DNA of 64,000 nt. Origin: Syncephalis plumigaleata (lineage: Eukaryota; Zoopagomycota; Zoopagomycetes; Zoopagales; Piptocephalidaceae). How positions within the stretch are numbered: the stretch's first letter is position 1; every line of letters starts with the position of its first letter. Under the pieces are notes generated by a model. The model was given only the letters and a program-made list of their open reading frames with translations, was not told where the DNA came from and made no database searches. Below, one piece after another: positions 55,101 to 62,713 of the stretch. Location of the stretch: the NCBI GenBank assembly GCA_025201365.1, contig JAIXMF010000010.1, positions 310,001 through 374,000 on the forward strand, written 5' to 3'. The position numbers and the translations under genes are program-made.

Positions 55101-55103
55101 TGC

Positions 55104-58100
55104 TTAACTCTAGCATTTAAATAATGCATGTCGTATTGTGGTTAGTGCCTCATCCATTACAGTCAGAGTGGTGACTTACCCACTAGCATACGCAGACATA
55201 TGTGAATTATATGACATATTGGTATTAGTACCTCATTTCTTACGGTCAGAATGGTAACTTACAGCCTGTTATACGGGAACATGCGTAAATCGTGTGCCAC
55301 ATTGGTATTAGTACGTCATTTACTGCTATCAGAATGGTAACTTACGATCTATCATACAAAAACATATGTGGATCACATTGTAGTTAGTACCTCATTTATT
55401 ACAGTTAGAGTGGTAACTTACAGGCTATTATTCGTAAGCATACGTGGACCGAGTGACATATCTGATTAGTACCTCGTTCATTACAATCAGAATAATGACT
55501 TACTTTCTATTATACAACAACATACGTGGATCATGCGTCATACTGTAGTTAGTACTCATTCATAGATTACGATCAGAATGATTACTTACAGCCTAGCATC
55601 CACAAGCATACATGGATCATGTGTCGTATTAATATCAGTACACCCATATGTTATCATCGGGAATAGTAACTTACGCACTGTTATCCACAAATATATGGAA
55701 ATCATGTGCCATATTATCATTAGTACATCATTCGTTACGGTCAGAAGAATGACTTACAGCCTAGTGTATGCAATATATGTGAATTATACGCCATATTGGA
55801 ATTAGTACGCCATTCATTACTGTCGGAATGGTAACTTACGATCTATCATACAGGAGCATAAGGAAATTATGAGCCACGTTACAATTAGTACCTCATAGGT
55901 TACAATCAGAACGATAACTTACGCGCTATAATAAGGGAATCATGCGTCACGTTACAATTAGTACATTCATTCATTGCAGTAAGAATGATTACTTACATCC
56001 TATCATACATGAACGCGTATTTGTTATGGATTATATTGGAATTAGTACGTCATTGATTAAGAACAAGTGGTAACCTACGGTCTATCGTACAAGGGCGTAT
56101 GCAAAACACATGCCATATCATAATTAGTAAGTAATGCACTACAATCGTGATGTTAACTCACCTCCTATCATACAGGAACATACGCGGATCATGTGCCGTA
56201 TCATAATTAATACACACATACGTTATCATCGGGAATAGTAACTTACGAGCTATCATATGCAGACATAGATGAAGCGTGTGCCACGTTATAATTAGTATTC
56301 ATTCATTCGTTACGGTCAGAATAATGACTTACGAGCTAGCAAACACAAACATACGCGGATCATGTGCCATATTATAATTAATAATCATATACATTATCAT
56401 CGGGAATAGTAACTTACGAGCTATTATACACAGACATAGATGAAGCGCGTGTTACGTTATAATTAGTGCACCATTCATTACGTTCAGAATAATGACTTAC
56501 GTCCTATTGCACAGGAACATACAGGATCATGCGCCGTATCGTAATTAGTGTGCCATACATTGCAACCGAAATAATAACTTACTCTCTAGTACACACAAGC
56601 ATACATGATTTGTGTGATATATCGCAATTAGTATCTCGATCATTACAATTGTAATGGTAACTTACTTGCTATCATACATGAACATATGTGGTAATGAGCC
56701 ACGTCGATATTAGTACATCAGGTATTACGGTCAGAATGGTAACTTACGTCCTATCATACGAGAACGTATGTGGATCATGGGCGATATCATAGTTAGTACA
56801 TCCATTCATTACGATCATAATGGTCACCTACACACTGTTATGGGCAGATATACGTATGGATAGAGGGTCAATTATCATTAGTACACCATAGTTTGTAAAT
56901 GGAATGATAACTTACACACTGCCATACCGGGGACATACGTAGGGATTATATGCCATACTACAGTTAGTATCCCCATTCATTACTGTCAGAGTGATTACGT
57001 ACCATCTATCACGCAAAAACATATGTGGATCATGTGCCATAACATGATTAGTATGTCATTTGTTACAATCAGAATGGTAACTTACTTTCTATTATACACA
57101 GACATATGTGGATTGCAGGACATATTATAGTCAGTATCTCATTCGTTACGGCTAAAATGATGACTTACTCTCTATCATACAGAAATGTATGCGGTTCATA
57201 TGCCATGTCATTATTAGCACGCCATACATTCAGCCAAAATGGTAACTTACAGCCTGTAATAAAAAACGTATTGATTACGAATCATATTGCAATCAGTATC
57301 TCATTCATTGCGGTCAGAATGATAACTTACAGGCTGTTATACACAGACATACGTGAATTATATGCAATATTGTGGTTAGTATCGCATATACGCTGTAGTC
57401 AGAACGGTAACTTACGTCCTATTGTTCAAAATATGTGTGATCGTATGCCATATTAGGATTAGTACGTCATTCATTACGGTCAGAAATGTTAACTTGCCCA
57501 CTAGCATGCAGGAGCGTATGTTAATCGTATGCCACACTATCATTAGTACATTTATTCATAACACTCAGGATGATGACTTACAGTCTATAATTCAGAAATA
57601 TATGTGGATCGTGTGTCATATTAGAATTAATATACCATAGATTGTAACCGAAATATTAACTTACGAGCTATCATATACAGACATGCGTTAATTGTGTGCC
57701 ACGTTATAATTAGTGCCTCATTCATTACAGTCAGAATGTTAACTTACCCACTAGCATACAGAAACCATGTGCCACGTTATAATTAGTACATTCATCCATT
57801 ACGGTCAGAGTAATGACTTACAGTCTATCATACAAGAAATCATGTGTCACGTTATCATTAGTACGTCCATGCGTTGCAGTCAGAGTGATTACTTACGCCC
57901 TATCATACAAGAACGTATATGAATCGTGTGCGATATTAGAATTAGTACGTCGTTTATTGCCATCATAGTGATAACCTACGCACTGTGATAGGCAAGTATA
58001 TGGATTGTGTGACAGATTGCGGTTAGTGTACCATGTATTACGATCAGAATGGTAACTTACAACAGCTTGAAATGATAGTCACATATGATGTTGGTTTGTA

Positions 58101-58407
58101 TTACAATTAGCACAGTACTTGTTATGGTCAATAGAATAGCTTACGAGTTTTTCCTAACAAATTTATAGATGGCATAAACATTGAAATGTGATTAGCATGT
58201 CAAAACAACCATTTAATATACATGAGCTTACCAGCTATCGGTAATCATTGGTAGACAATGAAACAATAGACTACGATTAGTACATCAATTGGTAGGGTCA
58301 CGGCTAGACATACCATGGCTGGTCCTCTTGCGCTTAGCTTCAACGGCGCCCTGACTGGTGAGAGCGACAACGGCGACGGCAATAGCGATAACGGCAGAGA
58401 ACTTCAT
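55104..58407 (-). CDS. Secreted cysteine-containing protein encoded by a chain of single-codon exons
   Basis: Exon 1 (58407-58314) encodes a textbook signal peptide (MKFSAVIAIAVAVVALTSQG, AVEA) and a KRKR Kex2-like site, ending in phase 1 before GTATGT. Exons of 3, 9 and 5 nt follow (58232-58234, 58145-58153, 58061-58065); with the hanging G they total 18 nt, reading AGKTPV, and leave phase 0. Then come 35 exons of exactly 3 nt at 57980, 57897, 57822, 57748, 57665, 57582, 57498, 57416, 57331, 57251, 57169, 57086, 57003, 56916, 56832, 56748, 56666, 56583, 56501, 56418, 56333, 56247, 56162, 56079, 55997, 55923, 55840, 55758, 55675, 55590, 55504, 55422, 55346, 55263 and 55180 (lowest base of each). 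The first 18 read CGTWLTWDPARKMCCDQR; the other 17 hold a Cys at residue 66 and end in Trp. The last exon (55101-55109) reads AGT TAA. Predicted product: 73 residues, Cys at 38, 51, 52 and 66. Introns are 70-84 nt. Function unknown; effector-like by build only. Confidence 0.8.
55110..58313 (-). repeat. Array of 39 related introns, about 83-bp period
   Basis: Tandem degenerate units covering 3.2 kb. Seen on the minus strand, each has a donor (GTAAG in most; GTAGGT, GTGAGT, GTACGT, GTATGT or GCAAGT in a few), a mid-intron CTGAC-like block, a TACTAAT-like branch site, a CACATGATCCACGTATGTTC-like block and a TAG or CAG acceptor. Neighbouring units share most positions. Units near the 5' end (58.0-58.3 kb) are the most diverged. 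A few (71-73 nt) lack the same roughly 8-10 nt block near the acceptor. Confidence 0.92.
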
Positions 58408-60994: not shown

Positions 60995-62713
60995 ATGACT
61001 ATTTATTTATTGGATTATGGCGCGGGTAATGTGCGCAGTCTAGTCAATGCTGTAAAGCGTCTTGGCTATGAAATGGAAGTAATTAAGACAGCCGACGACT
61101 TTGACAAAGCTGAGGTAATAATAATAGTAATAATAATGCTATTATTAAGCAGACATATCATAGACGATTTATTTACCAGCGATGCAATACAAATAGAAAA
61201 TTATATTCCCTGGTGTAGGCGCGTTTGGACCAGCTATGGTGGCCATGCAGAAAAAGGGCTATATCGAACCGTTAAAACGCTATTTGGCCGATGATCGACC
61301 ATTCTTCGGTATTTGCGTGGGTATGCAATGCTTATTTGAGGGTAGCGACGAGTGTCCCGATGAACCTGGTATCGGCGTTCTACCGGGACGCGTTCGTCGT
61401 TTCTCGAGCACTACGAAAACCGTGCCACACATGGGATGGAATGGTGTGCGCGCCCCGAATGGCTCACTAAAATGGACGGGTATCAATCAGGAGCACTTTT
61501 ACTATTTCGTTCATTCATTCGCCGTGCCTTACACGAAAGCATCGGCATCGACTACATTGACGGTGACCGACTATGAGGATGAGACATTTATTAGTGCCGT
61601 GAAACGTGGTCAATTAGTGGCGACGCAATTTCATCCGGAGAAGAGCGGCTATGCGGGACTACGCCTGTTACAAGCATTCCTAAAGGGCGACATTTGTGAT
61701 GCATCCGTGGCACCCAAACATGATGACACGCATACACAATTGACGCGTCGTGTCGTGGCTTGTCTCGATGTTCGTACCAATGATAATGGTGATTTGGTGG
61801 TCACTAAGGGTGATCAGTACGATGTGCGGGAGACTGCCGAGAATGGTGGACATGTTCGTAACTTGGGTAAGCCCGTTGACTTGACGCACCGCTATTTCGC
61901 CGAGGGAGCCGACGAGATTTGCCTGTTGAACATTACGAGCTTCCGAAACTCGCCACTGGCCGATCAACCAATGCTGGAGGTATTGCGCCAAGCATCGGAG
62001 CGTGTCTTTGTACCATTGACCATTGGTGGTGGTATACGTGATCTAGTTGAGCCTGATGGTACGGCACGATCAGCACTAGAGGTGGCGGTGCCTATTTTCG
62101 ATCTGGTGCCGATAAAGTATCCATCGGTGGTGATGCGGTATTTGCGGCAGAAGCCTATTGGAATAGCAATCGACAGTGTACGGGCACATCAGCTATTGAA
62201 CAGATTTCTAAAATATACGGCGCACAAGCCGTTGTTGTGTCGGTGGATCCACGTCGTGTCTACGTGGATTCACCGGAAGCCGTTAGCGCTGCTCATCGTG
62301 ACAATGTGGTACCGGCCAATCCTCATGGTCCCAACGGTGAAGCCTGGTGTTGGTACCAGTGCACCGTGCGTGGTGGACGTGAAACTCGCGACATTGATGC
62401 AAGACAATTGGCCATAGCGTCGGAGGCATTAGGTGCTGGCGAACTACTCGTAAACTGTGTCGATCAAGATGGAACTGGTCTAGGATTCGACCATGCATTG
62501 TTGACCAATCTACGCAATGCCGTGCGCATTCCCATCGTCGCATCTAGTGGTGCTGGCTGCTCTGCTCACTTTGCCAACGTATTTAACGAGTGCAACGTAG
62601 AAGCTGCATTGGCAGCAGGTATTTTCCATCGACGAGAAGTGGCCATTGAAGAGGTCAAGGCTCATTTGCGTGATAGCAACATTATCGTACGTAATGCAGA
62701 GTTGCCTATTTAG
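60995..62713 (+). CDS. HIS7: Imidazole glycerol phosphate synthase, HisH-HisF fusion
   Basis: Fifth step of histidine synthesis, feeding AICAR to purines. The glutaminase half starts MTIYLLDYGAGNVRSLVNAV. A 104-nt intron (61115-61218) precedes KIIFPGVGAFGPAM. CVGMQCLF holds the nucleophile Cys, and QFHPEKSG the His and Glu. The cyclase half (from about 61745, RRVVACLDVR) has GADEICLLNITSF, PLTIGGGIRDL, then VVSVDPRRVYVD, NCVDQDGTGLGFDHALL and IVASSGAGC. One base seems missing at about 62087: the frame before reads LEVA and the next frame continues GAYFRSGADKVSIGGDAVFA without a gap. Everything else is intact, so this is either a one-base sequence error or a very recent loss. Its promoter adjoins repeat arm C. 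Confidence 0.95.

Follow-up and report, generated by a model that had tools for sequence, protein, structure and literature searches.

The window analysed here, a 64,000-nucleotide (nt) stretch of contig JAIXMF010000010.1 of the fungus Syncephalis plumigaleata (Zoopagomycota), contains on its minus strand (58407-55104) a predicted gene in which a leader exon and exons of 3, 9 and 5 nt are followed by 35 consecutive exons of one codon each and by a stop exon. Analysis of this gene and of related copies elsewhere in the genome made it very probable that the array consists of genuine spliceosomal introns separating one-codon exons, and that the gene is one member of a large family encoding secreted peptides. 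This interpretation, originally proposed from the letters of the window alone, was supported by every prediction that could be tested on sequence.

Structure of the Window Gene

The gene lies on the minus strand, which the original prediction had left unstated. A recount of the array bore out the 35 consecutive 3-nt exons and agreed exactly with the original prediction for donors, acceptors, guanine-plus-cytosine (GC) content, Cys and Trp codons and the lack of stops. Acceptors were TAG in 28 units and CAG in 7, while donors were GTAAGT in 29, GTAGGT in 3 and GCAAGT, GTACGT or GTGAGT in one unit each. The 35 triplets (GC, 57/105) included four Cys and three Trp codons and no stop codon, and the array introns measured 71-84 nt, with a median of 80 nt. 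Closure of the reading frame ahead of the array was also as claimed: exon 1 (94 nt) ends in phase 1 and, together with the exons of 3, 9 and 5 nt, gives a total of 111 nt, which sets phase 0. At the other end of the gene, the sequence AGT TAA GCA (55101-55109) places TAA as the second codon of the last exon, as had been proposed. The acceptor and the following donor, GTAAGTAATA, at this stop exon were identical to those in copy L015. The splice parser described below took an overlapping CAG|TAA end in the window copy, and either reading terminates there. The spliced coding sequence is 222 nt long and its predicted product, MKFSAVIAIAVAVVALTSQGAVEAKRKRTSHAGKTPVCGTWLTWDPARKMCCDQRDLLLETDRIACAKPIAWS, has 73 residues, both exactly as originally proposed. 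The features of the predicted gene are as follows:

58314..58407, minus strand: exon 1, 94 nt, phase 1, with ATG, putative signal peptide, start of the propeptide (MKFSAVIAIAVAVVALTSQGAVEAKRKRTSH..) and donor GTATGT
58232..58234, minus strand: exon 2, 3 nt, CTG
58145..58153, minus strand: exon 3, 9 nt
58061..58065, minus strand: exon 4, 5 nt, sets phase 0
55180..57982, minus strand: 35 consecutive one-codon exons encoding CGTWLTWDPARKMCCDQRDLLLETDRIACAKPIAW; arrays also read in paralogs
57980-57982 and 55675-55677, minus strand: outer Cys exons of a C..CC..C framework
56832..56918, minus strand: adjacent Cys exons TGT and TGT of the C..CC..C framework
56177..56547, minus strand: duplicated codon-plus-intron cassettes, period 171 (two units), around CTC CTC CTC
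55101..55109, minus strand: last coding exon, AGT TAA GCA, encoding Ser and the stop; adjoining it, as in L015, is the donor of a 3' untranslated region (UTR) intron, GTAAGTAATA

The conserved blocks of the 83-base-pair (bp) repeat unit were intron signals, namely the donor GTAAGT, a CTAAY branch-point motif and YAG. In the copies that were retrieved, the branch A of CTAAY mostly lay 36-40 nt past the donor and 36-44 nt ahead of the acceptor.

Exon Lengths and Absence of Stop Codons

The pattern GTAAGT N55-85 YAG Nk GTAAGT, with exact donors, was counted genome-wide and compared with a reversed pattern as control. Exons of 3 nt were found 1899 times (control, 47), which confirmed on the scale of the genome that the 3-nt spacing exceeds chance. 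Counts were 13 for 2-nt exons (control, 42), 18 for 4-nt exons (control, 88) and 5 for 5-nt exons (control, 52). Exons of 6 nt were found 89 times (control, 30), and the listed places lay largely on C58 and C223. TAA or TGA between exact array-type donors occurred four times in the genome, beside the 1899 3-nt exons, versus 16 times in the control. These four places were C68:295206, C68:298100, C193:9005 and C193:11913; the pairs on C68 and C193 may represent two haplotypes.

Exon lengths were also derived with a dynamic-programming splice parser, which scored donors, acceptors and branch points, was blind to coding and had no length preference between 1 and 24 nt. Training of the weight matrices used 3-nt units, but the exon bases lay outside the matrices. 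In 52 gene copies, the parser returned 1410 exons of 3 nt, followed by 58 of 9 nt, 43 of 5 nt and 35 of 6 nt; rarer lengths were 12 nt (16 exons), 2 nt (13) and 15 nt (12). Parsed exons of 2, 5 and 9 nt were largely upstream phase closers, and many of those of 9, 12 and 15 nt were the last coding exon with its stop. Several different upstream sets closed the phase (94+3+9+5, 94+3+3+5, 94+3+9+2 and 94+9+9+2), with every sum divisible by 3, and the array exons, nearly all of them 3 or 6 nt long, were in phase 0. None of the 1410 one-codon exons was a stop, versus 46 expected from base composition. Among distinct units the count was 0/1261, versus 42 expected; because the units are related by descent, the probability behind this comparison should not be read at face value.

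Arrays rich in 6-nt, two-codon exons were seen in L024, where these exons encode a Pro/Arg/Asn-rich tail, and at C223:612325-614641. Further chains of 3-nt exons, with introns that seemed unlike those of the window family, were present at C1:1412781-1413732, C1:1415286-1416851 and C1:2256065-2256397, and possibly belong to other one-codon-exon gene families.

Codon Choice in the Array Units

If the triplets are exons, a good acceptor at a codon's own end is expected to be avoided. Codons in 1104 units with distinct context were compared with those in ordinary open reading frames (ORFs) of the window (2584 codons for NYA and NYG). Gln was encoded by CAA in 39 units and by CAG in none (ordinary ORFs, 61 and 39), and Lys by AAA in 69 and AAG in 14 units (ordinary ORFs, 62 and 59). 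Glu showed no difference, with 27 GAA and 33 GAG in units and 71 and 67 in ordinary ORFs. This order of depletion matches the usual ranking of acceptors, which is CAG, AAG, GAG. YAG codons were absent (0/1104). NYA codons, which together with the G of the donor create YAG, were rare (11/1104 units versus 450/2584 ordinary codons). Stop avoidance was separate from acceptor avoidance, since NAA (135) and NGA (50) codons were frequent in the units, yet TAA and TGA were absent. Other deviations were without evident splicing reason: NYG codons other than ATG were found in 7/1104 units versus 274/2584 ordinary codons, TAC in none versus 46, and TTC in 2 versus 51. In all, 30 codons covered 90% of the units, versus 47 codons in ordinary ORFs.

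Extent of the Family and Integrity of Its Copies

A leader-exon pattern with at most three mismatches was found at 164 places in the genome, and its reversed control at none. Array DNA matched at least 72 places genome-wide, with 40 of 182 candidates scored. Several near-identical copies on small contigs are probably second haplotypes, and the true number of loci is probably lower. In the parsed copies, the longest uninterrupted series of 3-nt exons comprised between 4 and 45 exons, with the maximum in L014. An automatic criterion required a frame that opens with ATG and stops in one of the two final exons; it was passed by 38 of the 52 copies, 32 of which were free of irregular exons or ends. 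Stops, variable length and lost protein conservation, which the original prediction had named as contrary evidence if found at orthologous loci of sister species, were not seen in this comparison of paralogs of one species. Comparison of L022 (C193) with L010 (C68) revealed an insertion of approximately 2 kilobases (kb), transposon-like by eye, that interrupts an otherwise matching array.

Of 133 leader places in the protein search, 72 had an open frame of 38-45 residues, the length expected where the leader is succeeded by intron 1; another 14 had frames of at least 100 residues. One of these 14, P0142 (C340:439257), encodes a protein without interruption, 143 residues long with the leader included, which indicated that this leader is common to ordinary and one-codon-exon genes. 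A similar secretory leader preceded an uninterrupted mature region in P0139, P0144 and P0148, while the ends of P0140, P0141, P0143, P0145, P0147 and P0150 resembled read-through of intron 1. Both of these latter groups of proteins come from short contigs (jgi, and one ena), carry the leader form MKFSAVIAIAV..DATPVLDRR and are probably environmental.

In 120 random pairs drawn from 25 non-allelic genes, median identity was 0.93 for the signal part of exon 1, 0.94 for intron 1, 0.82 for the 5' UTR and 0.69 for array introns. Leader exon and intron 1 may be exchanged as one module.

Deposited Gene Models

Four of the 18 named S. plumigaleata proteins could be matched to a retrieved copy. P0122 (BDF22DRAFT_685685) shared 38 residues with one-codon exons of L023, with three gaps; corresponding values were 40 residues and four gaps for P0126 (BDF22DRAFT_685769) with L015, 6 residues and no gaps for P0124 (BDF22DRAFT_698013) with L030, and 25 residues and two gaps for P0133 (BDF22DRAFT_657705) with L019. 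No residue was mismatched in any of the four comparisons. One P0122 gap fell at a doubtful 19-nt parser exon, in P0133 a single additional Gln coincides with an overlapping acceptor that permits a 6-nt exon, and P0124 continues into an intron. Agreement with the one-codon exons is partial, and the models may rest on RNA or on prediction. No model of the window gene was recognised among the 18 named proteins.

Predicted Peptides and Their Divergence

The leader, MKFSAVIAIAV.., is signal-peptide-like by eye, and is followed in most copies by RR and in the window copy by KRKR (by eye). A dibasic RR is a likely Kex2-type cleavage site. The framework C..CC..C with four Cys occurred in 22 of the 38 passing copies. 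L036b and L037a have this framework plus a fifth Cys inside a false 24-nt parser exon; that Cys was left out of the framework, and L037a was among the 26 sequences of alignment A1. The pattern was C..CC in L032 and CC..C.C in L049, and 12/38 copies had two Cys or none, as in the His/Gly-rich DHHHGHHGGHH. No Pfam family scored above cut-off for six family peptides and four related proteins, and a PDB sequence search of the peptides gave nothing useful (best E, 0.36).

Divergence was quantified in 13 related pairs with an intron divergence of 0.048-0.141, some genes being included in several pairs. Introns differed at 2461/26406 sites (0.093) and exons at 243/1011 (0.240), so that exons had changed 2.6 times faster than introns. 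Cys was kept in 44 of 45 pairings of Cys units, and the residue was kept in 188 of 292 pairings of other units. Among 126 changed codons, 105 changes were nonsynonymous and 84 involved two or three base differences. Single-base changes leaned synonymous (18/42, versus 0.20 expected), which points to whole-codon replacement as the route of fast change.

Codon-Plus-Intron Cassettes

Introns beside changed codons were more divergent than introns beside unchanged ones in 12 of the 13 related pairs, namely those with changed codons, as would be expected if cassettes were replaced together with their introns. Codon and intron similarity were compared across 1340 units, with 22 allelic or close-copy pairs left out. 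The nearest intron in another array flanked the same codon at a rate of 0.149 for downstream and 0.177 for upstream introns, versus 0.034 by chance, and this rate generally climbed with intron similarity. It reached 0.32-1.0 in upstream-intron similarity bins of at least 0.4 between arrays, and 0.33-0.83 in upstream-intron bins above 0.6 within arrays (6-12 units per bin). The CTC CTC CTC run of the window gene sits inside a two-unit duplication with a period of 171. Arrays thus appear to gain and lose cassettes while the frame stays intact, and recombination would be the source of codon changes.

Other Observations in the Window

HisHF, an ordinary gene near the array, showed 81% identity to Syncephalis pseudoplumigaleata across 73% of the query ORF and, by tblastn against a 548-residue relative, a single intron; dense splitting is therefore not general. 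Two tblastn matches in different frames, with a 12-nt overlap, marked a frame shift in HisHF at 62087-62099, which reflects either an assembly indel or a damaged copy. A scan of the window against Rfam at gathering thresholds gave no match.

Discussion

Several observations weigh against an array of functional one-codon exons. The ATG-to-stop criterion was missed by 14/52 copies; leader indels were present in L029, L040 and L044, 2-nt exons in L016 and L018, and an insertion in L022, while most of the remaining copies below the criterion seem to reflect errors of the parser where splice signals are weak. L026, L031, L032 and L060 pass with irregular exons or ends, and L036b and L037a pass with a 24-nt exon that runs into donor sequence. 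Deposited models omit codons or add one, and in places run into introns. The most similar downstream introns often flank a different codon, the relation between codon and intron similarity growing weaker there. In eight near-identical pairs, constraint on exons (8/693 changes) was not clearly greater than on introns (256/18283). An impression from part of these pairs, that near-identical copies are free of exon changes, was ruled out by this pooled count.

The leader indels and the insertion, together with 2-nt exons in L016, L018 and L032, would fit an architecture that once encoded proteins and of which most copies are now silent or form a decaying repertoire. A decaying family would, however, lose both its stop-free codons and its frames, and the complete lack of stops in 1410 codons and the 32/52 wholly regular frames render this improbable. 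Hardly credible is a non-coding 83-bp satellite, or a single long intron made of repeats, whose unit happens by accident to contain AG-NNN-GT. Tandem Repeats Finder does report a period-83 array, and array introns drawn at random from different genes resemble one another (median, 0.69). However, such a repeat is at odds with 0/1410 stops, with Cys being kept while other codons are replaced, with codon avoidance that fits splice signals, with 6-nt exons that stay in frame, with differing upstream exons that all close the phase and with deposited models that agree with the codons. The satellite and whole-intron readings were both rejected, contradicted by the length spectrum and the stop-free triplets.

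The near adjacency of acceptor and donor resembles Drosophila ratchet points (PMC8605326), and the triplets might accordingly mark splice points within one large intron that is removed by recursive splicing, without being translated. Skipped triplets are not expected to be stop-free, to keep Cys or to change mostly nonsynonymously, and a YAG at the codon end would make a true zero-nt point, yet is avoided (CAG, 0/39 Gln codons); this explanation is very improbable. Less readily dismissed, although still unlikely, is that the exons are real and serve chiefly for combinatorial alternative splicing, with any subset of codons skippable in frame. The phase-0 array exons, almost all of 3 or 6 nt, would allow this, and the P0126 model omits four codons, all at units with weaker donors; P0122 omits one codon at a GTGAGT donor and one at a GTAAGT donor. 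On the other side, donors are mostly GTAAGT (29/35 in the window copy), and codons absent from models may be an artefact of the predictor.

In the favoured reading, the array would consist of spliceosomal introns between coding exons of exactly one codon, with the window copy joining 40 exons over 39 introns. Splicing would most likely proceed by intron definition, given short introns with strong GTAAGT, CTAAY and YAG signals. The genes would be transcribed and completely spliced, and cleavage of the propeptide would yield a functional peptide. The family product would comprise a conserved signal peptide, then a short propeptide with RR at its end in most cases, and finally a mature part that is hypervariable and in many copies carries C..CC..C. 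One codon plus its intron would form a cassette of 80 nt that is duplicated, lost or exchanged whole; such events would change whole residues and leave the frame intact, so that the array would act as a frame-safe diversification device. Syncephalis is described as a genus of mycoparasites (PMC6784888). Secretion, family size and diversification suggest that the peptides most likely act extracellularly at the parasite-host (fungus-fungus) interface. As a tentative and rather doubtful extension, peptides might be assembled residue by residue genome-wide, with swapped cassettes and controlled skipping generating combinatorial secreted libraries against host fungi; in that equally tentative scheme, thousands of cassettes with a restricted codon dictionary would move between genes.

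The family shares with schistosome micro-exon genes (MEGs) predicted secretion, a putative signal peptide placed first, tiny exons mostly in multiples of three, rapid divergence and occurrence in a parasite. MEG exons are reported as mostly 15 bp, with a minimum of 6 bp in the results or 3 in the abstract of the same paper, and introns as 0.1-5 kb, in 35 genes with 10-20 short exons (PMC10526429). In contrast, as many as 45 consecutive exons in Syncephalis are exactly 3 nt long, introns measure 71-84 nt in the window copy and there are 164 leader places. No homology to MEGs was found among 31 proteins obtained by the leader search. Aphid bicycle genes are likewise putative effectors, split into numerous micro-exons and highly divergent in sequence, but are described as having approximately 17 exons on average, with internal exons almost all in phase 2 (PMC9168663), whereas Syncephalis array exons are in phase 0 and of one codon each.

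Conotoxin superfamilies combine a conserved leader with a hypervariable, Cys-framed mature peptide. Divergence in their mature exons is approximately threefold that of flanking non-coding DNA, according to work cited in PMC10561478, which is comparable to the 2.6-fold difference in Syncephalis arrays. A conotoxin-like organisation was visible in the signal-part identity of 0.93 and the retention of Cys in 44/45 pairings, yet 12/38 copies have no or two Cys. Conotoxin genes typically have 1-6 exons (PMC10561478), unlike the codon-by-codon split of the Syncephalis mature part; the analogy is evolutionary, and no homology was found. Spliceosomes have been reported to include exons of 1 nt (PMC8831610), but isolated plant and animal microexons of 1-3 nt occur singly in ordinary genes, whereas the mature coding sequence in Syncephalis consists almost wholly of such exons. 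At ratchet points, too, acceptor and donor almost touch (PMC8605326); these are zero-nt sites that leave nothing in the mRNA, whereas in Syncephalis three nt separate the sites and YAG codon ends are avoided. The Syncephalis family is thus like micro-exon effector genes in structure and like conotoxins in evolution, and a member of neither. Titles and abstract openings among the matches listed described neither runs of one-codon exons nor this family.

If this reading is true, proteins would be built and diversified in an unprecedented way, one amino acid per exon, and exons of 3 nt would be usable dozens of times consecutively, in a fungus. Splicing and the genetic code would share one unit in these genes, which to our knowledge would be the first of this kind. 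The partial models compared here suggest why annotation overlooks such genes, and similar families may hide as apparent satellites in other genomes. The family would also make testable the old question whether introns speed protein evolution by supplying exchangeable coding pieces; here each piece would correspond to one residue, and dozens of parallel genes are available for comparison.

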